The notes below the pieces were generated by a model that saw nothing but the letters and a program-made list of their open reading frames with translations, searched no databases and had not been told where the DNA came from. Shown here one piece after another: positions 37,101-49,441 of a DNA stretch of 64,000 bases. Within the stretch, counting starts at the first letter, position 1, and every line of letters starts with the position of its first letter. The stretch lies in assembly GCA_022651385.1 (NCBI GenBank), contig JALCQR010000009.1:1-64000 (forward strand). Reading direction: 5' to 3'. Both the position numbers and the translations under genes were made by a program. Origin of the DNA: Clostridia bacterium (lineage in GTDB: Bacteria; Bacillota; Clostridia; Lachnospirales; Anaerotignaceae).

Positions 37101-37940
37101 ATGACTGAGAAGATGATTAAACAACAAGACTTTGAATTTGTGGAAAAAGATTTCTCCGAACCAGCAAGCACAAAGATAAAAATTAAAATCGAAAATGTAG
37201 GCGTAAAGTTTCAAGATAAAAATGGAATAGAACCTGTAATTGCCCTCAAGGATGTAAATCTTGCTATAAAGGAAGGCGAGTTTATATCATTGCTCGGACC
37301 GTCAGGATGCGGAAAAACTACATTATTAAGATGTATAGCAGATTTGCTGCATCCAACAAGCGGAAAAATCACAATTGACGGCCAGTCGCCAAGAGATATA
37401 CGTCTCCAGAAAAAATTCGGAATAGTATTTCAAAGTCCAGTGCTTTATGAGTGGAGAACAGTAAGAAGAAACGTATGTATGCCAATGGAATTGTTGGGAC
37501 TGCCTAAAAAAGAAAGAACGGCAATGGTTACAAAAACTTTGGAGCTTGTAGGGCTTATGGAATTTGGACACAAATATCCTCACGAGTTAAGCGGCGGCAT
37601 GCAGCAAAGAGTTGGAATTGCCAGAGCGCTGGCAATTAACCCGGAGCTTCTTTTGATGGATGAACCGTTTTCCGCATTGGATGAGTTTACTAAGGAAAAA
37701 TTACATGTTGATTTGCTTCGCATATGGAGAAAAACTAACAAAACAATTATTTTTGTTACCCATAATATTCAGGAAGCTGTGTTTTTGTCGGACAGAGTAG
37801 TGGTTTTATCACCTCGTCCGGGACGCGTATCAAGTGTTGTTGATATTAAATTACCTCGTCCAAGAGCGCTGAGTTTAAAAAATACACCGGAATTTAATGA
37901 TTATGTAATTAAAATCAGAAACAGCTTTGAGGGGGTATGA
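37101..37940 (+). CDS. ABC transporter ATP-binding protein (NitT/TauT type)
   Basis: 279 residues. Walker A GPSGCGKTT near residue 65, signature LSGGMQQRVGIARAL, Walker B LLLMDEPFSALD and the H-loop FVTHN. The family powers uptake of nitrate, taurine, and of pyrimidine-containing compounds such as hydroxymethylpyrimidine and riboflavin. It has about 30 extra residues at the N-terminus. Followed after 3 bp by a permease. Likely imports the substrate of the degradative enzymes downstream. Confidence 0.93.
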   Translation: MTEKMIKQQDFEFVEKDFSEPASTKIKIKIENVGVKFQDKNGIEPVIALKDVNLAIKEGEFISLLGPSGCGKTTLLRCIADLLHPTSGKITIDGQSPRDIRLQKKFGIVFQSPVLYEWRTVRRNVCMPMELLGLPKKERTAMVTKTLELVGLMEFGHKYPHELSGGMQQRVGIARALAINPELLLMDEPFSALDEFTKEKLHVDLLRIWRKTNKTIIFVTHNIQEAVFLSDRVVVLSPRPGRVSSVVDIKLPRPRALSLKNTPEFNDYVIKIRNSFEGV

Positions 37941-37943
37941 CAT

Positions 37944-38756
37944 ATGAACAAAGCAAAGAAATTGTTGCTGTCCAAAAAAATGATAATCCTCTACTGGGTA
38001 CTGGGACTGATTGCGGTTTGGGAAGTTATAGCAAGCATAGTTGCCGTAACAAAGCGTTCGCCGGAAAATGTGCTGCCGCATATATATCAGGTTATTGCAT
38101 CTGTTTTCAGCAATACTATGGCAGGCCCCACTAAGACCATTACGCAGATTGTTATTTCCAATGCCGGCATGACATTATGGCGGGCGGCAGTTGGCTTTTT
38201 AATAGGCATGGCGGTGGGATATATTCTGGCACTGCTTATGAGTTTATTTAAGACAGTTGAAAAAGTAGCATTTCCATATCTCATGATTATTCAGATGATA
38301 CCTATTCTCGGTATTGCGCCAATTATTTTGGCCATTACAAAGGACATTGACGCAAGCCGAATAATAATTGCGGCAATTCTTACATTCTATCCTGTATCAA
38401 CAAATGTACTGGCCGGTTTTAAATCAGTGCAGCAGGAAAAGCTTGATTTGATGTTTTCACTTGCCGCTAAGAGAAAAGACGTATATATGAAACTGATGGT
38501 TCCGGCAAGCATGCCTTACTTTTTTACCGGACTTAAAATTGCGGCTCCTATGGCAATAACGGCATCAATTCTTGTAGATACTTTGCAGGGCGGCGGCGGT
38601 CTTGGATGTATGTTGTCACAGTCACTTAAACATGCAATGTCAATATACGTATTCTGGCAGATTGCGTTTTTAAGTGCGATTGTCGGTATATTAAGCTTCT
38701 GCCTTATGGGAGTGATTGAAAAAATATTGTCGCCTCAGAGAAAAGCCAAACTTTAA
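37944..38756 (+). CDS. ABC transporter permease 1 (NitT/TauT type)
   Basis: 270 residues, about six membrane helices, with the BPD-type coupling loop around AAKRKDVYMKLMVPASMPYFFTG shortened to RKDVYMKLMVPASMP. ATG at 37944 directly after the ATPase stop. Forms the channel with permease 2. Confidence 0.92.
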   Translation: MNKAKKLLLSKKMIILYWVLGLIAVWEVIASIVAVTKRSPENVLPHIYQVIASVFSNTMAGPTKTITQIVISNAGMTLWRAAVGFLIGMAVGYILALLMSLFKTVEKVAFPYLMIIQMIPILGIAPIILAITKDIDASRIIIAAILTFYPVSTNVLAGFKSVQQEKLDLMFSLAAKRKDVYMKLMVPASMPYFFTGLKIAAPMAITASILVDTLQGGGGLGCMLSQSLKHAMSIYVFWQIAFLSAIVGILSFCLMGVIEKILSPQRKAKL

Positions 38757-38771
38757 GGGGGTGCGATTAAA

Positions 38772-39575
38772 ATGAAGACAAAAAAAATAAACAAAAATAT
38801 GGTAACAAACATTTTATACCCTGTTATATTCGGAGCAATTATTTTAATTTTGTGCCAGACACAAATAATGCATAAGATTTTAGGCACAGATGTGTTTACA
38901 CTGCCTCTTCCAAGCCGAATCATAGAAATTATAAGTGAAAACATTCCTAAAATTATGGTGAATGTGAAAGCCACTTTAATTGTATCGGTAGGGGGATTGA
39001 TAATTGGGTCATTGTTAGGATATCTGCTTGCAATAATCGCAACAGTTTTTCCAAAAGGCGGAGCAGGCGGACTTTCTGTTGCGGCGGCGTTTAATGCGAT
39101 TCCCATTGTTGTTATTGCGCCTATATTTAATAACCTTACAAAAGGAATAAGCTCAGATGCCAGTTTCAGAAGCATGATTGCAAAAACACTTGTAGTAACT
39201 GTGTTTTGCATGGCGTCAATGAGTATCAACGCTTACAGAGGACTAAACGAACTTCCTCCGTTTTCAGTAGACTTGCTCAAATCTTATGCGGCAGGCAATT
39301 TTACAATATTTAAAAAGCTGAGACTGCCTAACAGTATACCATATATTTTTATAGCTTTAAGAGTTACAGTTCCGGGATGTATTATAAGCGGCGTTGTTTG
39401 TGAATATTTTGCGGAATATGTTATTGGAGTCGGACGTCAGATACGTGAAAATATAGTAACTGCACAGTATGCTACAGCGTGGGCATACATTACTGTTGCA
39501 TGTATTATGGGAATTATTATGTATATTATTTTGCTTATTGCTGAAAACGTTTTATTAAAGGGAAGAAAAAGTTAG
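38772..39575 (+). CDS. ABC transporter permease 2 (NitT/TauT type)
   Basis: 267 residues, six helices; coupling loop FTIFKKLRLPNSIPYIF. Its moderate likeness to permease 1 suggests a heteromeric channel, as in other pyrimidine-type importers. GGGGTG precedes the ATG. Confidence 0.92.
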   Translation: MKTKKINKNMVTNILYPVIFGAIILILCQTQIMHKILGTDVFTLPLPSRIIEIISENIPKIMVNVKATLIVSVGGLIIGSLLGYLLAIIATVFPKGGAGGLSVAAAFNAIPIVVIAPIFNNLTKGISSDASFRSMIAKTLVVTVFCMASMSINAYRGLNELPPFSVDLLKSYAAGNFTIFKKLRLPNSIPYIFIALRVTVPGCIISGVVCEYFAEYVIGVGRQIRENIVTAQYATAWAYITVACIMGIIMYIILLIAENVLLKGRKS

Positions 39576-39660
39576 ACCTATTTTACGGTATGATCAGGAC
39601 TCTTTAAGATGTCCTGCAAAATTAAATATTTCATTATTTTTTAGAATGGGAGGAATATGT

Positions 39661-40839
39661 ATGAGAAAACGGTTTAAAGAGTTTGGTGCACTTTTAACAG
39701 CAGTTATGATGGTATGCTTTACAGTTTCAGGATGCGGAAGCACAGCTACTTCTTCTGCCACAGGCAGTACATCAGGCAGTGAAACGGCATCATCTGCAAA
39801 ATCTTCTTCAGCTACAGAATCAACGTCATCAAGCGGAAAATATTTTGATAAAGACGCAACTGTAAAAGAAGTTCTTACAAAAGCAAGCGAAGAAGGCAAA
39901 ATTGGAAACTGGGGAGGCGGAAACGAATATGAATTGTTGGCTTTACTTTCAAAATATGGCCTTAAAACTTCATTTTTAAGCCAAGGCTATGACATGGATG
40001 GATTTGATGACGACTCAATTTTATTGGCATCGGTTATGACCTACAATGAAAAAGGGCTTGTTAAAAACAGTTACCCTGGCGGCTACGGCTATGGTGATAA
40101 GGTTAAGACAATTGACTTTAACCAAGAAGGCGTAGGAATGTTGGAAGACAACATATTCTGCACAAAGGATTTTGCAAAGGCAAATCCAAATACAGTAAAG
40201 GCTTTTATTTCAGCATCCCTTAAAGGCTGGAAAGATGCCTGCGCAGACCCTGAGGCAGCAGCCGAAACCGTGTATAAATACGGCTCTTCTGTATCTTCGC
40301 AGCATCAGTCTTACATGGCAAAAGAGGTTAAGAAACTTGTAGAAACAGACATAAACGGAAACGCAGTTTCTGATGATAAATTGGGATATATAAATGATGA
40401 TGCAATGCAGCAGACATTGGATATATTCAGAAAATATGTAAAATTGGACGATTCTTCTGCAAATGATGCCCTTCAGAAAATGGCTCTTGATGATTTCAGA
40501 GATAATTCATACTGGGAGGGAGCAACATCAGGCGATTTCGGTACACCTGAGAAATCAGACGTTACTATACAGTTAAAATGGCTACCGCAGGCACAGTTTA
40601 TGGGATATTATGTAGCTTTGGATAAAGGATACTATAAAGATCTCGGCTTAAATGTAACAATTACACCTGGCGGCGGCGATATCGGTGAGACAACGGCTGT
40701 ATATACAGGCCAGGCTGATTTTGGAACTACATGGCCAGCAACATTAATCTCCGCAGATGCCAGCGGTATGGGACTGCTTGAGGTTGCACAGATTTACCAG
40801 CGCTCAGGACTGCAGATGGTTTACAAAATAAATCAATAA
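39661..40839 (+). CDS. ABC substrate-binding lipoprotein, NMT1/THI5 type, circularly permuted
   Basis: 392 residues from the ATG at 39661 (GGGAGG 7 bases upstream). A lipoprotein signal ends in VSGC with C25 as the lipid anchor, followed by a Ser/Thr linker to about residue 60. Residues about 81-290 (IGNWGGGNEYELLALL, then YNEKGLV, GVGMLEDNIF and SLKGWKDA) match the second half of THI5/NMT1-type binding proteins. Residues 301-392 (VTIQLKWLPQAQFMGYYVA, then the Gly-rich PGGGDIG, ADFG and QIYQRSGLQMV) match the part that normally comes directly after the signal peptide. The normal order is therefore swapped at the hinge. The family binds pyrimidines and related rings, consistent with the enzymes encoded next. 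No frameshift or stop interrupts it. Confidence 0.88.
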   Translation: MRKRFKEFGALLTAVMMVCFTVSGCGSTATSSATGSTSGSETASSAKSSSATESTSSSGKYFDKDATVKEVLTKASEEGKIGNWGGGNEYELLALLSKYGLKTSFLSQGYDMDGFDDDSILLASVMTYNEKGLVKNSYPGGYGYGDKVKTIDFNQEGVGMLEDNIFCTKDFAKANPNTVKAFISASLKGWKDACADPEAAAETVYKYGSSVSSQHQSYMAKEVKKLVETDINGNAVSDDKLGYINDDAMQQTLDIFRKYVKLDDSSANDALQKMALDDFRDNSYWEGATSGDFGTPEKSDVTIQLKWLPQAQFMGYYVALDKGYYKDLGLNVTITPGGGDIGETTAVYTGQADFGTTWPATLISADASGMGLLEVAQIYQRSGLQMVYKINQ

Positions 40840-40854
40840 AGTTATAACTTTCAT

Positions 40855-40875
40855 GCAGGCGCTTGCGGCGCCTGC
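40855..40875 (+). other. GC-rich hairpin after the binding-protein gene
   Basis: GCAGGCGC and GCGCCTGC form a perfect 8-bp stem with a five-base loop and no T-run. In many ABC operons such a hairpin protects the upstream mRNA so that the binding protein is made in excess. Confidence 0.6.
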
Positions 40876-40901
40876 GTACTGTATTAAGGAGGCTCAAAAG
40901 T

Positions 40902-42269
40902 ATGGATTTAATTATTAAAAACGGAACAATAGTTACGGCAAAAGAAAGCTATATTGCAGATATTGCGGTAAAAGACGGGAAAATAGTAAATATCGGCATA
41001 AATCTTACTGATGACGGGGCCAAAGTTATAGATGCAACAGGAAAACTGGTGCTTCCTGGAGCAATTGACGCTCATACACATCTTAATATGCCTTTTGGAG
41101 GAACTGTATCGGCAGACAGCTACCTTGCCGGCACAAGAGCTGCGGCATGCGGCGGTGTAACTACTGTTTTTGATTATCCTGTGCAGAGAAAAGGCAGCGG
41201 AATAATGGAGACAATTAACGGAAAAAAAGAAATATGCGAAAAAGAAGCATGTGTTGATTATGCTTTCCATTGCTGTATTACAGACTTAAACGGAGGCGCA
41301 ATATTAGATGAATTTAAAGACGCTGTTGCAAACGGTATAACGAGTTTTAAATGTTTTTTTGTATATAAAAAAGAAGGAATGATGGTAGACGACGGAACAT
41401 TTGTTAAAATTCTTTTAAGGGCAAAAGAAGTAGGTGCGATGACAAATGTTCATGCCGAAAATCCGGACCTTATTGATATGAACACAGAAAAGTTTTTAAA
41501 AGAAGGAAAGACATCGGCTTGGTATCACTATTTGAGCAGACCGGAATTTGTGGAAGCTGAAGCTGACAAAAGAGCTGTTCATTGGGCCAAATCGGTAAAT
41601 GCACCTGTATATATTGTACATATGGCGGACAAAGAAGGCTTGGAAGCCGCAATTGCCGCAAAAGAGGACGGAGCTGAAATCTATATCGAAACTTGCCCGC
41701 AGTACCTTGAATTTACATGTGATGTATATAAGAGAGAAGACGGACGCAATTTCGTATGTTCACCGCCTATGAAAGGCAAGGAAAGCCAAGACGCATTGTG
41801 GAAAGCTATAAAAACTGGTGCAATTGACACTGTAGCTACAGACCATTGTCCTTTCCAAAGTTATGAGAAGGATTGGGGCAAAGATGATTTTACAAAAATT
41901 CCAAACGGCTGTGCCGGAGTTGAAAACCTGTATCCTTACATGCTTTCGGCAGCAACAGACGGAAAAATTACATATAACCGTGTTGTGGAATTATGTTCCA
42001 CAAACCCGGCTAAGATATTCGGATGTACAAAAAAGGGCTCTCTTGCTATCGGAAAAGACGCCGATATAGTAATTTATGATCCTACAAAGGACTTTACGAT
42101 TTCAGTAAAAAATATGCACTCCGATTATGACCATACAATATGGGAAGGCAAGACTGTACACGGCTATCCGGTACAGACATATGTACGTGGAAAACTTGTA
42201 TTTGACAACGGTAATTTTGTGGGTGAGCCGGGATACGGACAATTTATTAAGAGAGAACCGAGAAAATGA
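40902..42269 (+). CDS. hydA: Dihydropyrimidinase (D-hydantoinase family)
   Basis: 455 residues from the ATG at 40902, preceded by AAGGAGG. Hydrolyses the ring of dihydrouracil/dihydrothymine to N-carbamoyl-beta-amino acids. Zinc ligands: H58 and H60 (DAHTH), carboxylated K150 (SFKCFF), the His of YIVHMADKEG and the catalytic-site Asp of ATDHCPF. Length is typical. Hydantoins are an alternative substrate, but the PreA gene 12 bp downstream favours pyrimidines. Confidence 0.93.
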   Translation: MDLIIKNGTIVTAKESYIADIAVKDGKIVNIGINLTDDGAKVIDATGKLVLPGAIDAHTHLNMPFGGTVSADSYLAGTRAAACGGVTTVFDYPVQRKGSGIMETINGKKEICEKEACVDYAFHCCITDLNGGAILDEFKDAVANGITSFKCFFVYKKEGMMVDDGTFVKILLRAKEVGAMTNVHAENPDLIDMNTEKFLKEGKTSAWYHYLSRPEFVEAEADKRAVHWAKSVNAPVYIVHMADKEGLEAAIAAKEDGAEIYIETCPQYLEFTCDVYKREDGRNFVCSPPMKGKESQDALWKAIKTGAIDTVATDHCPFQSYEKDWGKDDFTKIPNGCAGVENLYPYMLSAATDGKITYNRVVELCSTNPAKIFGCTKKGSLAIGKDADIVIYDPTKDFTISVKNMHSDYDHTIWEGKTVHGYPVQTYVRGKLVFDNGNFVGEPGYGQFIKREPRK

Positions 42270-42281
42270 AGGGGGCATACT

Positions 42282-43781
42282 ATGGCTGATGCGAAATACA
42301 AAGAACAGGTGCTAACGGAAGAATGCGGCCAGTGTCTTCTTTGTGAAAAAGGAGCCTGTGCAGAGGCTTGCCCATATGGTATTAAAACCGATGAGGTAAT
42401 ACGAAGCATTCGTTTTGAAAATATATCAGGCGCTGCGGCAAAACTGCCGAAATATCTGCCTTGTGATACATGTGAGGGCAAACCATGCAAAACGGCCTGC
42501 ATAAAAAGCAAAATAAATAAGTCTGTTGCGATTGATGAAATCATGAAGTTATGTTCTTTGACAAAAACAACTGAAAAAGCAGAAGCTGACTTGTCAATAG
42601 ATTTTTGCGGGCTTCATTGTGAAAATCCATTTTTCTTGTCTTCTTCCGTAGTTGGAAGCGGCTATGAGATGATTGCAAAGGCATTTGAAATGGGCTGGTC
42701 AGGTGTGGTATATAAAACGATAACAAGTTTTACTCATGATGAGGTTTCTCCGCGTTTTGCCGCGTTAAAAAAAGAGGCTAATCCGTTTATTGGATTTAAA
42801 AATTTAGAGCAGACATCGGAAAAACCATTAAAAGAAGATATTGATACTTTAAAACGCTTGAAAAATGACTATCCGGATAAAATCGTTATAGCGTCTATTA
42901 TGGGGCAAAACGAGGAAGATTGGAGTTATCTTGCCAAACTTTCAACAGAAGCCGGTGTGGATGCGCTTGAGCTTAATTTTTCGTGTCCGCATATGGCACA
43001 CGGCGGAATGGGCTCTGATGTAGGCGAAAATCCAGAGGTTGTGGCAGAATATGTAAAAGCTGTAAAAAAGGCGACAAATATTCCTGTTATTGCTAAAACG
43101 ACTCCAAATACTGGGAATATGGTGCCTTCGGCAGTTGCGGCAGTAAAAGCGGGAGCTGATGCCTTGGCGGCAATAAATACCATAAAAAGTATTATGAATA
43201 TTCATCCGGAATCTTTTGTGTCAGAACCTGAAATATGCCAAAAAAGCGCAGTAGGCGGCTATTCAGGAAAGGCAGTTAAGCCTATAGCCTGCCGCTTTAT
43301 TTACGATATGGCAACTTCAAAAGAGCTTAAAGGTGTCCCTTTAACAGGAATGGGCGGTATCGAAACATGGAAAGATGCAATGGAATTTATTGCACTTGGA
43401 TGTACAAATATACAGGTGACGACTTCCGTAATGCAGTATGGTTACAGAATAATTGAAGATATGATAGACGGCATGAAACGGTTTCTTTATGAAAACGGTT
43501 TTGACAGCATAACGGAAATTGTTGGCGCGGCTTTGCCGAATATTATTCAAACAGATGAACTGGAACGCAGAAGTATATGTTATCCGAAATTCAGCTTAGA
43601 TAAATGCGTGGGCTGCGGACGATGCTATATATCATGCTTTGACGGAGGACATCAGGCACTTGCAATGGTTGATAAAAAACCGCGCATTAATGCTGAAAAA
43701 TGTGTAGGATGTCACTTATGTCTTGCCGTATGCCCGGCAGGCGCAATATCCGCCGGTCCTCGTGTGGGACGTAAAATGTAA
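42282..43781 (+). CDS. preA: Dihydropyrimidine dehydrogenase PreA subunit with extra N-terminal Fe-S domain
   Basis: 499 residues. From about residue 95 it is a PreA: FMN-binding barrel (NPFFLSSSVVGSGYE, GFKNLEQ, NFSCPH, INTIKS, GYSGKAVKPIA, GGIETW) and two C-terminal 4Fe-4S motifs (CVGCGRCYISC and CVGCHLCLAVCP). It interconverts uracil/thymine and their dihydro forms. Residues 1-80 are an added Cys-rich domain with C15, C18, C21, C26, C30 and C61, C64, C69, C73, of the kind that opens full-length DPD and PreT/GltD proteins. The FAD and NADPH domains normally joined to it are absent, and no preT is adjacent, so the electron donor may be ferredoxin (inference). Confidence 0.92.
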   Translation: MADAKYKEQVLTEECGQCLLCEKGACAEACPYGIKTDEVIRSIRFENISGAAAKLPKYLPCDTCEGKPCKTACIKSKINKSVAIDEIMKLCSLTKTTEKAEADLSIDFCGLHCENPFFLSSSVVGSGYEMIAKAFEMGWSGVVYKTITSFTHDEVSPRFAALKKEANPFIGFKNLEQTSEKPLKEDIDTLKRLKNDYPDKIVIASIMGQNEEDWSYLAKLSTEAGVDALELNFSCPHMAHGGMGSDVGENPEVVAEYVKAVKKATNIPVIAKTTPNTGNMVPSAVAAVKAGADALAAINTIKSIMNIHPESFVSEPEICQKSAVGGYSGKAVKPIACRFIYDMATSKELKGVPLTGMGGIETWKDAMEFIALGCTNIQVTTSVMQYGYRIIEDMIDGMKRFLYENGFDSITEIVGAALPNIIQTDELERRSICYPKFSLDKCVGCGRCYISCFDGGHQALAMVDKKPRINAEKCVGCHLCLAVCPAGAISAGPRVGRKM

Positions 43782-43807: not shown

Positions 43808-45070
43808 ATGTATACATGCAGTATTGAAAGAATGAAAGACAAAATTAAAACAATGAGTAAGTTTGGAGATGCCGGACACGGCGGCGTAACAAGATACGCT
43901 TTATCTCCCGAGGATATCATGGCACGTAATGAGTTTATAAAGAGAATGGAAGCCATAGGGGCAAAAATAGAAATTGATGATGTGGCAGACATGTATGCGA
44001 CACTGCCGGGCAGTGAGCCTGGTGCAAAGCGTATTGTTATGGCATCACATAGTGATTCTGTTAAAAACGGCGGAAACTATGACGGCATTTTAGGTGTTAT
44101 GTCAGCAATGGAAGTATTGGAGACTGTTGCGGATTTAAAAATTCCTCATAAGCATCCTTTAACGGCCATGGTTTGGACAAATGAGGAGGGCTCGTTATAT
44201 CCGCCTGCAATGATGTGTTCAGGTATTGTATGCTATGATTACCTGCCGGAAGACATAAGGCAGAAGTTTAAATATGAGGACATGATGGCTTCAAAGAGCA
44301 TTTTGGACCCTACCAAGAATTTTGGTGAAGCATTGGAAAAATCAGGATTCAAGGGAGACAAAAAATACCGCTTAAATCCGGAAAAATATAAATACATGTT
44401 TGAAACACATATTGAGCAGGGACCTATTCTGGAGGATGCCGGAAATGACATAGGCGTTGTTGACTGTGTGCTTGGAATGTTTAACTACCGTTTGAAATTT
44501 TACGGGCAGACAACGCATGCGGGAACATTTCCTATGCCTAAAAGAAAAGACGCATTTTTTGCGGCAGCCAAGGCATTATGTTATCTGCATGAAGAGATTG
44601 ATAAGTTAGGATATCCGGAACTGGTATACACAACAGGTGAAGTGGTTTGCCACCCATGTGTACATACATGTGTGCCTGATTATTTCGATTTCTCATTTGA
44701 CTCAAGACATGAGGATCCTAAAGTATTGGATAAAGTGCTTTCTATTGTAAAAAGCTGTGCTGACAAAGAATGGTGCGGATGTACATGCAAAGTTGAAAAA
44801 GCCTGGAACCGTGACACAGTATATTGGGATAAAAATCTGGTAAGCTACGTAAAAGAAGCTGCTGAGGAATTAGGCGTAAAACACCAGTATATTCATTCAG
44901 GGGCCGGACATGATGCGCAGTTTGCATCATACATGCTTCCTACAACAATGATATTTGTACAGTCTAAAAACGGATTATCACATTGTGAGCCTGAGTATTC
45001 TTCTCCTGAACACTGCACCGAAGGCGCATCGGTTTTATTAAACGCAGTGTTAAAGGCAGATGCCGAATAA
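43808..45070 (+). CDS. M20 N-carbamoyl-beta-amino-acid amidohydrolase (beta-ureidopropionase type)
   Basis: 420 residues from the ATG at 43808 (AAAGGGA site; the GTG at 43799 is too near it). Zn-dependent amidase/carbamoylase of the M20 family: SHSDSVKNGGNYDG and TNEEGS hold metal ligands, FETHIEQGP, GQTTHAGTFPMPKRKD and SGAGHDAQF complete the active site. Expected to release beta-alanine (or 3-aminoisobutyrate), CO2 and NH3 from the dihydropyrimidinase product. Last gene of the operon that starts at 37101. Confidence 0.9.
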   Translation: MYTCSIERMKDKIKTMSKFGDAGHGGVTRYALSPEDIMARNEFIKRMEAIGAKIEIDDVADMYATLPGSEPGAKRIVMASHSDSVKNGGNYDGILGVMSAMEVLETVADLKIPHKHPLTAMVWTNEEGSLYPPAMMCSGIVCYDYLPEDIRQKFKYEDMMASKSILDPTKNFGEALEKSGFKGDKKYRLNPEKYKYMFETHIEQGPILEDAGNDIGVVDCVLGMFNYRLKFYGQTTHAGTFPMPKRKDAFFAAAKALCYLHEEIDKLGYPELVYTTGEVVCHPCVHTCVPDYFDFSFDSRHEDPKVLDKVLSIVKSCADKEWCGCTCKVEKAWNRDTVYWDKNLVSYVKEAAEELGVKHQYIHSGAGHDAQFASYMLPTTMIFVQSKNGLSHCEPEYSSPEHCTEGASVLLNAVLKADAE

Positions 45071-45190: not shown

Positions 45191-45226
45191 AAAAAAAGAA
45201 TTCTGTTTTCAAAGGAGTGATTGCGT

Positions 45227-46447
45227 ATGACGACATTTGAACAGATACTTGCATTGGAAGAATTAAAGGACGCAAAAGTTATTGCGGGAAAGCAGGGCAT
45301 GAATACGCCTATCAGCTGGGTGCATATTGTTTTTGACGTGGATATAAGCTCATGGATTAGCAAAGGCAATCTTTTGATTGTAAACGGAGCCGGATTCCGA
45401 TATGCTGAACGGGATTTAATAAGCATAATTGAACAGCTTAATCAGGTAAAAGCAGCAGGCATAATTGTTGAAAAAGGCAAGTACATAAATGTGATTTCCA
45501 AAAAAGTAATCCGGAAGGCAGATGAACTCGGGATTTTGGTAATAGAAGTTTGCCGTAAACTTGATATGGAAAGCCTTACATATGCGATAGGACAGCTTTG
45601 CTTTAAAGATTCTCAAATGAAAAACCGCTCTGAAATTTTAAAGGAGATTGTTTATCTGCCGTATATCGAAGAACGCAGAAAGGAACTAATAAATTTAGGT
45701 TATGATGAAAATGAGCCTTATGCGGTGGCAGCAATTGAACCTAATTTGGAATCCGTTGATTCTATAAAAGCCAAAAGCGAACATTTTTGGACACATATAA
45801 AAGACCGGTTTTTGTCATTGGTAAGCTCAGAATTTCTAACAGACGAAAGCAAGCTGTGGCATTTTAACGAAAACGGAATTTATATTTATCTTGTAAAGCT
45901 TCCTCAAAGGGACTGTGCAAAAAAAACTATTATTGACCACATGAAAAATATAAAAAATAATATAACAAATACTGAAGGCGGAATAACCGTAAGCATTGGC
46001 ATAGGCAATATTATTTATGATATAAAGGGGATAAGAGCCAGCGTATACCAGGCAAAATACGCTTTGTCTTCGCTTAGTTTGTGCAAACGTTCAAACGAGG
46101 TGCGGCTTTACGAGGACATGGGTGTATACCGTATATTTTTTCAGTATCACAATGACGAGAAACTAATTGAGCTTTATAAGCGTATATTAGGTGAATTGGA
46201 AAGACAGGATAAGGAATACAACAGTCAGATGTTAGATACTTTAGAGACATACTTTACATGTAACTGTAATCTAAGCCGGACTGCCGATGTACTGTTTATA
46301 CACAGAAATACTCTTAAATATCGCTTAAAGAAAATTAAAGAAATACTTATGATTGATTTTGATGACTGCAATGCAAGTTTTACTGTGCAGTTTGCGCTTA
46401 AAATAAAGAAATACCTAAAGGCTCAGGGAACGGCTGTTGTTACCTGA
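45227..46447 (+). CDS. PucR-family transcriptional regulator 1
   Basis: 406 residues from the ATG at 45227 (AAGGAG 9 bases upstream). Residues about 1-120 are the PucR N-terminal domain (FEQILALEELKDAKVIAG), followed by a GGDEF-like central domain and a C-terminal helix-turn-helix (NLSRTADVLFIHRNTLKYRLKK). PucR proteins activate purine, pyrimidine or amino-acid catabolic genes in response to the substrate. It lies between the operon terminator and the aminotransferase gene and is a paralogue of the regulator at 48257. Confidence 0.9.
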   Translation: MTTFEQILALEELKDAKVIAGKQGMNTPISWVHIVFDVDISSWISKGNLLIVNGAGFRYAERDLISIIEQLNQVKAAGIIVEKGKYINVISKKVIRKADELGILVIEVCRKLDMESLTYAIGQLCFKDSQMKNRSEILKEIVYLPYIEERRKELINLGYDENEPYAVAAIEPNLESVDSIKAKSEHFWTHIKDRFLSLVSSEFLTDESKLWHFNENGIYIYLVKLPQRDCAKKTIIDHMKNIKNNITNTEGGITVSIGIGNIIYDIKGIRASVYQAKYALSSLSLCKRSNEVRLYEDMGVYRIFFQYHNDEKLIELYKRILGELERQDKEYNSQMLDTLETYFTCNCNLSRTADVLFIHRNTLKYRLKKIKEILMIDFDDCNASFTVQFALKIKKYLKAQGTAVVT

Positions 46448-46853: not shown

Positions 46854-46859
46854 ATGAAT

Positions 46860-48197
46860 ATGGGAAAATTAACTACAGAGCAAATTCAGGAATACGATAA
46901 TAAATATCTGCTTCATACATGGGGAGTTCAGAGCAATAAGCCTCGTACTGTAATAGAAAAAGCAGAAGGAATATATCTTTATGATTCCACAGGGAAGAAA
47001 TATTATGACATGACATCACAGGCGGTAAACGTTAATATCGGCCACGGAAATAAAAAGCTTATAGCAGCAATTAAAGCCGAAATGGATAACCTTCCGGCAC
47101 TCGGACCGTCATTTGCAACCGAAACACGTTCTCTGCTTGCAAAAAGAATATTAGGTCTTGTATCGGATAAAATGGGAAAGGTGTTTTTCACTTTGGCCGG
47201 AGCGGATGCCAATGAAAATGCCATTAAAATAGCAAGAATGTATACAAGAAAACCAAAAATTTTTACACGCTACCGTTCTTATCACGGTTCAACAAGCGGT
47301 GCTGGAAATCTGACCGGTGAACCGAGAAGGTTTGCAAACGAAATTGCTGGGAGTTTTGGATACATCAAGTTTTTTGACCCATATATATATCATGAAACAA
47401 TACCTTTTGAAAGCGAAGAAGCCGCAAGTGCTTATTACGTGAGCAAACTGAAAGAACAAATAATATATGAAGGCGTGGAAAGCGTAGCAGCCGTAATGTG
47501 TGAAACCATTACCGGAAGCAATGGCGTAATTATTCCTCCTAAAGGATATTTAAAAGGTGTGCGTCAGGTCTGCGACGAATTGGGTATATTAATGATTTGC
47601 GACGAGGTTATGGCTGGGTTTGGAAGAACAGGCAAGTATTTTGCTTTCCAAAACTTTGGCATAGAACCGGATATCATTACTTTTGCAAAGGGAATTACAT
47701 GCGGATATGTTCCTTTGGGCGGTGTTATTGTAAACAAGAAGATTGCAGAGTACTTTAACACTCATGTATTAAGCTGCGGTTTAACTTATGCTTCACATTC
47801 AGTTGGCTGTGCTGCGGGAAATGCTATGCTGGATATATATGAACAAGACCACGTTATGGAACACGTTCAGGAAGTCGGCAAGGTGCTTGGTGAAATTTTG
47901 GAAGATTTAAAAGCAAAACACAAATGCATAGGCGATGTAAGATATATAGGTCTGTTTTCGGCAATCGAGCTTGTTAAAAACAGAAAAACAAAAGAACCTA
48001 TTGTTCCTTACGGCAAAGATCCTGAGAAGATTATGCCTAATATTATAGGAAAATTAAAAGAAAAAGGTTTCTATTGCTATGGTCATGAGAATAATATTTT
48101 AGTAGCGCCTCCGCTGATTATTAAAGAAGAAGAATTGCGAGAAGCTATGAAAATAATGGATGAAGTATTGGACTATGTAGATACGATAGTTGATTAA
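46860..48197 (+). CDS. Class III PLP-dependent aminotransferase (omega-amino acid type)
   Basis: 445 residues from the ATG at 46860 (AGGAGG 8 bases upstream; the ATG at 46854 is too near). PLP site: DEVMAGFGRTGKYFAF and the Lys of FAKGITCGYVPLGG. The family includes beta-alanine:pyruvate, 4-aminobutyrate and taurine aminotransferases. In this setting it would convert beta-alanine or 3-aminoisobutyrate to the semialdehyde, with pyruvate or 2-oxoglutarate as acceptor (inference). Flanked by the two PucR genes. Confidence 0.9.
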   Translation: MGKLTTEQIQEYDNKYLLHTWGVQSNKPRTVIEKAEGIYLYDSTGKKYYDMTSQAVNVNIGHGNKKLIAAIKAEMDNLPALGPSFATETRSLLAKRILGLVSDKMGKVFFTLAGADANENAIKIARMYTRKPKIFTRYRSYHGSTSGAGNLTGEPRRFANEIAGSFGYIKFFDPYIYHETIPFESEEAASAYYVSKLKEQIIYEGVESVAAVMCETITGSNGVIIPPKGYLKGVRQVCDELGILMICDEVMAGFGRTGKYFAFQNFGIEPDIITFAKGITCGYVPLGGVIVNKKIAEYFNTHVLSCGLTYASHSVGCAAGNAMLDIYEQDHVMEHVQEVGKVLGEILEDLKAKHKCIGDVRYIGLFSAIELVKNRKTKEPIVPYGKDPEKIMPNIIGKLKEKGFYCYGHENNILVAPPLIIKEEELREAMKIMDEVLDYVDTIVD

Positions 48198-48256
48198 ATA
48201 TGCTTGTGGGGTTTATAAAAATGCTGCAATAACCAAAAGTAGTGGAGATGACATCT

Positions 48257-49441
48257 ATGTTTATCACTTATAAACAGTTATTGAGCATGAAAGAATTAAA
48301 CAGAGCGGAAATTGCCGGAGGCAAGGCCGGCTTATATCGTATTATATGCTGGTATTCCATTGCGGAAATCGTAAGTTACAAAGAAGAAAGCTATGAGGAT
48401 AAACTGGTCTTTGTTTCAGGCATTGGATTGACAAATTATAAACAGGAATTATTAAATATTATCCGTTATGTCATAAAAAAAGGTGCTGCCGGAATTGTGT
48501 TGGAAATAGGACCGTTTATTCATGATGTTCCGGATGAAATTCAAAAATTTGCAGATGAGAATGCATTTCCGGTACTTGCATTGCCATATGATATAAAAGT
48601 CAGTAATGTTACTTATGCAATGGCAAAAATTCTTTCCATGCAGACAAATTATTATCAGGGAATGCGCAAAGTCATGGATGAGCTTAGGACTCAAACTGTC
48701 ACAAATGAGCTTATGGAAAAGGCTTTTTATTACGGATATAAATCCAGAGAAGCCTACTATGGGATTATTGTTGAAGAAGACGATCATTTGCTGGCAACGC
48801 AAGATGGCGTAAAAGACAAACTGCTGCTTTCTTTTTTTGCTGTATTCGGCAGGCTTGATTACAAAGATATTTTCTGGTCTGAGGAAAACGGATGTCTGAT
48901 GTTTATTGTTGCTTGGCGTAACAGTGGTAACCTAAAGCAGGAAATCAGCAAATATATGACATTGCTGGAAAAAGACTGGCATTCTAAATATTATAAATGG
49001 AGCCTTAGCATAGGAGTAGGTTCTGTTTTTCATGATATTAAAGACGCGGCGCTGAGCTTGGAGCAGGCTAAAAAAGCACTGTATATGATAAGACAGTGTC
49101 ATAAACGTCATGAAATTCGGATATTTGAGGATACCGGAATTTATCGTCTGTTTTTTGAATACAATGATTCTTCCGAATTGGAAAACATTTATCACAGCGT
49201 ATTAGGCGATTTACTGGAATATGATAAAAAAAACGACGCTGAACTTACAAAAACCCTGGAAGTTTTTTTAAACTGCAATTGTAATATAAGTTTGACTTCT
49301 GAAACAATGAATGTTCACCGCAACACTATTAAGTATCGTGTAAAAAGAATACAGGAAATACTAAATTTAGACATAGCCAGCAACAATCAGTGCTTTAATC
49401 TGCGGCTTGCATTTAAAATCAAAAAATTCCTGCGAATATAA
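48257..49441 (+). CDS. PucR-family transcriptional regulator 2
   Basis: 394 residues from the ATG at 48257 (GGAG 9 bases upstream). Same three-part layout as the regulator at 45227: N-terminal PucR domain (YKQLLSMKELNRAEIAGG), central domain, and the helix-turn-helix SLTSETMNVHRNTIKYRVKR. 59 bp after the aminotransferase, so probably co-transcribed. Two related activators could sense different intermediates. Confidence 0.9.
   Translation: MFITYKQLLSMKELNRAEIAGGKAGLYRIICWYSIAEIVSYKEESYEDKLVFVSGIGLTNYKQELLNIIRYVIKKGAAGIVLEIGPFIHDVPDEIQKFADENAFPVLALPYDIKVSNVTYAMAKILSMQTNYYQGMRKVMDELRTQTVTNELMEKAFYYGYKSREAYYGIIVEEDDHLLATQDGVKDKLLLSFFAVFGRLDYKDIFWSEENGCLMFIVAWRNSGNLKQEISKYMTLLEKDWHSKYYKWSLSIGVGSVFHDIKDAALSLEQAKKALYMIRQCHKRHEIRIFEDTGIYRLFFEYNDSSELENIYHSVLGDLLEYDKKNDAELTKTLEVFLNCNCNISLTSETMNVHRNTIKYRVKRIQEILNLDIASNNQCFNLRLAFKIKKFLRI

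Follow-up and report, generated by a model that had tools for sequence, protein, structure and literature searches.

A probable natural circular permutant of NMT1/THI5-like proteins, the putative binding lipoprotein of a pyrimidine-degradation ABC importer

The locus and its genes

The window analyzed here is a stretch of 64,000 nucleotides from a Clostridia bacterium. The genes described below, from a transporter ATPase to an aminotransferase, are all on its + strand. Three components of an ABC transporter come first: the ATPase (37101–37940; Pfam ABC_tran, E 1.2e-36), permease A (37944–38756; Pfam BPD_transp_1, E 6.8e-20) and permease B (38772–39575; Pfam BPD_transp_1, E 8.3e-13). They are followed by the gene of main interest (39661–40839), which encodes an NMT1/THI5-like substrate-binding lipoprotein of 392 amino acids plus a stop that appears to be circularly permuted. 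Downstream of it are a dihydropyrimidinase (HydA/PydB; 40902–42269; TIGR02033, 499.3 bits with a cut-off of 393.25), a PreA-like dihydropyrimidine dehydrogenase (42282–43781; NF006183, 546.3 bits with a cut-off of 335), an N-carbamoyl amidohydrolase of the ureidopropionase/allantoate hydrolase family (43811–45070; NF006771, 424.4 bits with a cut-off of 399; TIGR01879, 323.7 bits with a cut-off of 204), a PucR-family regulator (45221–46447; PF07905, E 2.1e-23), and a class III aminotransferase (46854–48197; Aminotran_3, E 1.5e-87) that, judging from the operon, is probably a beta-alanine aminotransferase (PydD-like). A second regulator (48242–49441), behind the aminotransferase gene, has a weak C-terminal AdeR-type match that is below the curated cut-off; the aminotransferase gene is flanked by two PucR-like regulators.

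The dehydrogenase, dihydropyrimidinase, carbamoyl hydrolase and aminotransferase together make up an operon for reductive pyrimidine degradation (Pyd). HydA and PreA score above NCBIfam equivalog cut-offs and the carbamoyl hydrolase above subfamily cut-offs, and the aminotransferase is assigned by Pfam only. The PreA-like dehydrogenase has an N-terminal Fer4_20 domain, and its Pfam matches include no FAD domain. With its iron-sulfur domain at the N-terminus and the FAD domain not matched, it resembles the ferredoxin-dependent PydAc of Clostridium chromiireducens, as described in the available part of PMC7332683.

An earlier note on this DNA described the binding-protein gene as having an intact frame, a good ribosome binding site, a lipobox and a Ser/Thr linker, and a reading of the sequence confirmed each of these. 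The ribosome binding site GGGAGGA (39648–39654, +) is upstream of the ATG at 39661. A lipoprotein signal peptide (39661–39735, +) extends through the lipobox cysteine, Cys25 (codon 39733–39735), and is followed by a Ser/Thr linker (residues 26–58; 39736–39834, +), in which the structural model described below has pLDDT block means of about 41–65. With a signal peptide ending in a lipobox cysteine, an ATPase and two permeases, the locus has the components of an ABC importer with a binding lipoprotein.

The spacer between the genes for the binding protein and the dihydropyrimidinase contains a GC-rich hairpin (40853–40877), whose centroid structure has 11 pairs and a loop of 3 bases. It has no T run behind it, and its z is −1.8, with 10 of 200 shuffles equally good; it may protect the transcript, or cause partial termination.

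Order of the two parts of the chain

Residues 59–290 of the window protein (39835–40530, +) correspond to the second part of an NMT1 protein of normal order, and residues 301–392 (40561–40836, +) are the counterpart of the first part. In a search of the window's own genome, positions 95–216 of the PF09084 (NMT1) profile matched at 39898–40260 (E 2.2e-10) and positions 2–81 matched at 40591–40830 (E 6.5e-16) – that is, the segments are in reversed order. The structure of SsuA, 3ksj, also aligns by its residues 95–289 to residues 60–284 of the model. The counterpart of the first part appears to end in the first hinge strand (model strand 384–390). Between the two parts, at about residues 291–300 (40531–40560, +), is the new joint, where the former C-terminus connects to the former mature N-terminus, as placed by the optimum of a rotation scan and by an EK motif. 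This motif directly precedes LKWLP in 78 of the 82 permuted proteins, the window protein included.

The whole-protein score for PF09084 is 98.2 bits, which passes the Pfam gathering cut-off of 20.5, and the profile is found in all 37 aligned members of the permuted family (E up to 0.001), but the segments of the window protein are not in the usual N-to-C order. Judged from its sequence, the protein is a member of NMT1 by family and not by chain order, and is thus placed in a permuted subfamily. NCBIfam has no family above its cut-off for this protein – the SsuA aliphatic sulfonate family, TIGR01728, reaches 23 bits with a cut-off of 163.5 – and Pfam gives two reversed fragments, so the permutation is hidden by automatic annotation. 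In the closest solved relative by sequence, the normal-order PDB chain 4nmy_A, chain residues 6–74 match query residues 299–368 and chain residues 194–257 match query residues 163–222; this second match is weak with a single sequence (i-E 0.1) and firmer with a family profile (1.4e-5).

For the rotation scan, residues 59–392 were compared by global scores with 7 of 13 normal-order relatives, and for all seven the best rotation begins at residues 274–303. Against L124, a normal-order protein from the same phylum, the score is 356 in the native order and 582 once rotated (at residues 290–302), compared with 15.9 ± 8.6 for shuffled sequences, which excludes a chance origin of the order. Identity after rotation is 44.4% (136/306) to L124 and 46.6% (139/298) to L125, from the same phylum. 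Two controls behaved as colinear pairs: L131, a permuted relative, scores best near the native order (1026 native; 1034 at best, at residues 63–65), and in comparisons of L124 with six other normal-order proteins the native order is either the best or at most 7 points below the best.

The same order is found elsewhere. When genome contigs were scanned, 127 relatives were found; the best 80 of these were retained, and L131 was added from a separate genome search. The window protein aligns colinearly with every one of these 81. Both halves were matched in 94 loci, namely these 81 and 13 of the opposite order, and 21 further loci (L103–L123) in which BLAST matched a single half were excluded from the order count and from the trees. 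A near full-length match with no stop is present in 8 of 146 genomes of the same taxonomic order, the window's own included. It is therefore extremely improbable that the order is an artefact of an assembly error or a misread frame in a gene that is truly of normal order. Nothing beyond the oddity of the order speaks for this, and all 81 relatives, from other assemblies that include both isolates and metagenome bins, are colinear, which rules out misassembly or a frame error. A single odd gene, or a recent event confined to this genome, is also ruled out by the colinear relatives elsewhere.

Circular permutation with the break at the inter-lobe hinge, which the earlier note had proposed, is thus supported by the order of the profile segments, the rotation scan and the 81 colinear relatives. 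The sequence evidence for it is strong, and the evidence from the modelled structure is suggestive. An AlphaFold2 model made with a 37-row alignment has a pLDDT of 86.2 and a pTM of 0.81. Only 4 of its 734 Foldseek matches have E ≤ 0.001; all four are B. subtilis OpuAC, and their TM-scores are low (0.34–0.39 by model, 0.47–0.53 by target). VIA-align was used for a second look at the Foldseek top 1000; 50 rows are listed, with only the end residues of each alignment. The best match is again OpuAC, with residues 5–263 of 2b4l aligned to model residues 54–392 (Z 11.1, rmsd 5.2, 226 residues aligned, 15% identity). Only the later parts of SsuA 3ksj (95–289) and of 3un6 (124–324) align, to model residues 60–291. 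These two, together with four entries that bear the title 'Enzyme of biosynthetic pathway', are the 6 of the 50 rows in which the alignment stops at about model residue 291. The other 44 reach residue 391–392; LysR effector domains and molybdate-binding proteins, which are type II proteins of normal order, are among them, at Z of about 8–9. Because the lobes are alike and normal-order proteins also span the model, the fold search supports, rather than proves, an OpuAC topology. 4nmy and 3ix1 are absent among the 50 VIA-align matches listed, which carries no information on the fold, and the OpuAC Pfam family is not among the matches at E up to 1, a range in which HMMER drops most matches above about 0.1.

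Relatives, partners and history

The permuted proteins are found mostly in Clostridia: of the 80 relatives kept as the best of 127, 68 are assigned to this class and 7 to Spirochaetia, and 5 have no class assigned. Among 398 genomes drawn from the phylum, 129 had some match, and a full-length match was present in just 2, the window's own included. In the next best phylum genomes listed (G367, G219, G022, G105, G066, G376 and G335), a single open frame contains both halves, in the normal order. The window's own genome has other NMT1 genes, none matching the window protein over its length; its other four matches are to a signal-peptide-like stretch (three) or to residues 299–367 (one).

Mean identity inside the permuted clade is 80.0% for the block of residues 297–390 and 73.8% for the block of residues 77–278. 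This conservation and the operon suggest that the protein is a working one, as the earlier note had it. Within the two blocks, the window protein differs at 11 positions where at least 95% of the 81 others agree; its departures from the clade consensus include V352A, N361T, L131K and M153F. It also has a long end branch in the binding-protein tree, 0.5 compared with a median of 0.15. Together, the 11 departures and the long branch raise the possibility of a change of ligand in this protein.

A regular expression finds a lipobox-like motif in 75 of the 81 permuted relatives. The six without a lipobox-like cysteine (L023, L027, L030, L034, L040 and L042), five of them spirochaetal, are perhaps free periplasmic or secreted forms of a protein that is usually anchored.

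The gene neighborhood is also conserved. All three importer partners are present in 75 of the 81 permuted loci, and HydA or PreA in 77. Of the four loci lacking both enzymes, three are on contigs that end at most 250 bases past the gene; the true exception is L042, which has the transporter and no pyrimidine gene in about 13 kb. One locus, L080 (594–3462), has rearranged transporter genes, with permease B and the binding protein on one strand and permease A and the ATPase on the other.

A homolog of dihydropyrimidine dehydrogenase is present in 72 of the 81 loci, which points to an oxidized pyrimidine base as the starting compound of the pathway and argues against a different cargo. That the transporter instead carries hydantoins, dihydropyrimidines, ureido acids or a thiamin-type pyrimidine is conceivable but rather doubtful. 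Hydantoins are also substrates of enzymes of the dihydropyrimidinase family, the solved relatives 3ix1 and 4h65 are named for thiamin-precursor pyrimidines, and some residues are found in the permutants only, all of which count in favor of another cargo. Among these clade-specific residues are G79, G85 and Y388, near the new ends, and G339, E343, T345 and A346, in one loop that may touch the ligand or alter which ligand is bound.

The 13 loci of opposite order, seven from genomes of the phylum and six from plasmids, have similar surroundings. An ATPase is present in all 13, and HydA or PreA in 12 within the stretch examined. Pyrimidine genes adjoin the normal-order relatives on a Klebsiella plasmid (L133), a Deinococcus plasmid (L134), Thalassospira plasmids and others; the exception, L135, has no pyrimidine gene in about 17 kb. 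Residues that are identical in all 13 normal-order proteins include W84, N129, E130, E162, D163, W307, Q312, F313 and D340, which suggests that the mechanism has been kept. The ATPases have a mean identity of 66.9% among the loci with a permuted binding protein, and of 63.8% to the ATPase of L124.

In the trees, a single branch parts the permuted from the normal-order proteins. In the binding-protein tree this split has support of 100/100, and in the tree of the ATPase and permeases the same split has an SH-aLRT of 100, from a quick tree. The split itself has a value of 1.0, where a rerooted tree shows 0.683 at the permuted group. The supported trees contain 37 of the 82 permuted rows, the window's own included, with 13 normal-order rows for the binding protein or 12 for the partners, and the fast trees contain 82 + 13 and 76 + 12 rows. 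The simplest reading is a single origin, in a transporter whose partners stayed of the same kind. The branch to the permuted clade is long, with 1.99 changes per column compared with a median end branch of 0.15. The nearest sister of this clade may be L124, which is unsure because of the long branches (L134, L124) and the midpoint root.

The spirochaete proteins nest within the clostridial clade, where they fall into two supported groups (L023/L027/L040/L042 and L035/L044), which suggests transfer between phyla. The branching between these groups is weak in the tree.

The identity to the nearest normal-order relatives, L124–L127, is not the same in the two blocks: 49–55% for residues 297–390 and 41–44% for residues 77–278. 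This difference speaks for a fusion of pieces of two different genes, with a first-half piece of one paralog placed behind a second-half piece of another, rather than permutation of one gene, and no intermediate with duplicated halves was noticed among the matches listed from the 398 phylum genomes and the 146 genomes of the taxonomic order. Such a fusion is nevertheless unlikely, as both blocks share L124–L127 as their nearest relatives and the block 297–390 is the more conserved one within the permuted clade as well, so that the difference may reflect constraint. The earlier note suggested a tandem duplication followed by loss of the outer halves, which is a possible route; a fusion of two copies of the gene would give the same end product.

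Proposed architecture and comparison with known systems

Taken together, these results make it quite probable that the window protein is a natural circular permutant of NMT1/THI5-like proteins and the putative binding lipoprotein of an ABC importer for pyrimidine degradation. From what was computed – the reversed order, the conservation, the single clade opposed to the normal-order proteins, and the operon – we infer the assignment of the lobes, the number of hinge crossings, binding, docking, the ligand and transport as follows. The chain of a normal-order type II binding protein runs through lobe I, a hinge, lobe II, a second hinge, and lobe I again. In the permutant, the chain would have been opened at the first inter-lobe hinge, and the old N- and C-termini bridged by a short linker of about ten residues (about 291–300) before QLKWLPQAQF. 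The lipid-anchored N-terminus would then lead straight into lobe II by way of helix 68–77, and the C-terminus would be in the hinge strand of lobe I, a few residues past the conserved VYK. Each lobe would be continuous, with one covalent crossover between them rather than two, and the ends of the old hinge pair would still be close to each other in the fold. The lobes would still close over a ligand, which is most likely a compound with a pyrimidine ring such as uracil or thymine, and the binding protein would dock on the two permeases.

A permutant and an unpermuted sister of 44–47% identity, in similar operons and with related permeases and ATPases, make a valuable natural pair. With related partners for both orders, one can test directly how chain order affects folding, the motion of the hinge and coupling to the importer. 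The permuted family is also a candidate component of pyrimidine uptake in many Clostridia. According to the available part of PMC11036815, 5-fluorouracil is a substrate of this degradation pathway in one gut bacterium, although no link to the permuted protein is implied.

The closest known systems are the normal-order NMT1/THI5 proteins, among which L124 and L125, from the same phylum, have 44–47% identity to the window protein after rotation. Relative to them, the halves of the window protein are reversed, and the anchor probably leads into the other lobe. The window protein has a helix (model residues 68–77) before the GNWG motif, where the normal-order proteins have a SPADLKGK-type segment, and unlike theirs its chain ends a few residues past the conserved YK of the old hinge.

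Among the glycine betaine-binding proteins a permutation is on record for OpuAC, and 2b4l and 1r9l appear in a figure in the available part of PMC2395249. OpuAC (2b4l) is the best structural match to the window protein, colinear over the whole chain, and may have the same permuted topology. The two differ in ligand and in partners, with 15% identity in the structural alignment. Since the window protein is 44–47% identical to normal-order NMT1 proteins and 15% identical to OpuAC, the permutations in the OpuAC and NMT1 families appear to be independent.

A further natural circular permutant, the glucose-binding lipoprotein TpMglB-2 (Tp0684) of Treponema pallidum, has been proposed as 'Type Ic / Cluster Bc' (PMC4990184, in the part available, as for the statements on it below). 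It retains ligand binding and the change of shape, and has relatives in treponemes and gut Gram-positives; its permutation adds a fourth crossover (PMC4990184). The TpMglB-2 fold is type I, its ligand is a sugar and its cut is a different one – a crossover was gained there, whereas here one was probably lost. Its spread over treponemes and gut Gram-positives (PMC4990184) is similar to the spirochaetal and clostridial spread of the NMT1 permutants, to which it is unrelated.

The authors of the TpMglB-2 work consider a fusion of pieces from two different genes, and propose an explanation based on the tether (PMC4990184). As a cause of the NMT1-family permutation the tether explanation is weakened, because 6 of the 81 permuted proteins have no lipobox-like motif and lipobox-like sequences can be read in the normal-order proteins L124–L127. 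The same facts, which leave tethering alone as no explanation, speak for a selectively neutral permutation – a single founder event, fixed and then inherited, with the mechanism unchanged – as do the single clade, the similar partners and operon, and the many positions that were kept: at 37 of 52 and at 54 of 86 conserved positions, two or more of the four normal-order proteins that are closest have the same residue. The long branch to the clade argues against neutrality, as does the recurrence of permutation in unrelated binding proteins (PMC2395249, PMC4990184, in the parts available). We give a neutral origin even chances.

The earlier note knew of no described example. This holds for the NMT1/THI5 family, for which no description of a permutation was found in the openly licensed literature searched, and 'permut' is absent from the available part of PMC2861598; it does not hold for substrate-binding proteins as such, given OpuAC and TpMglB-2. 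What appears to be new here, on firm sequence evidence, is thus the permutation in the NMT1/THI5 family, while permuted binding proteins in general were already known.
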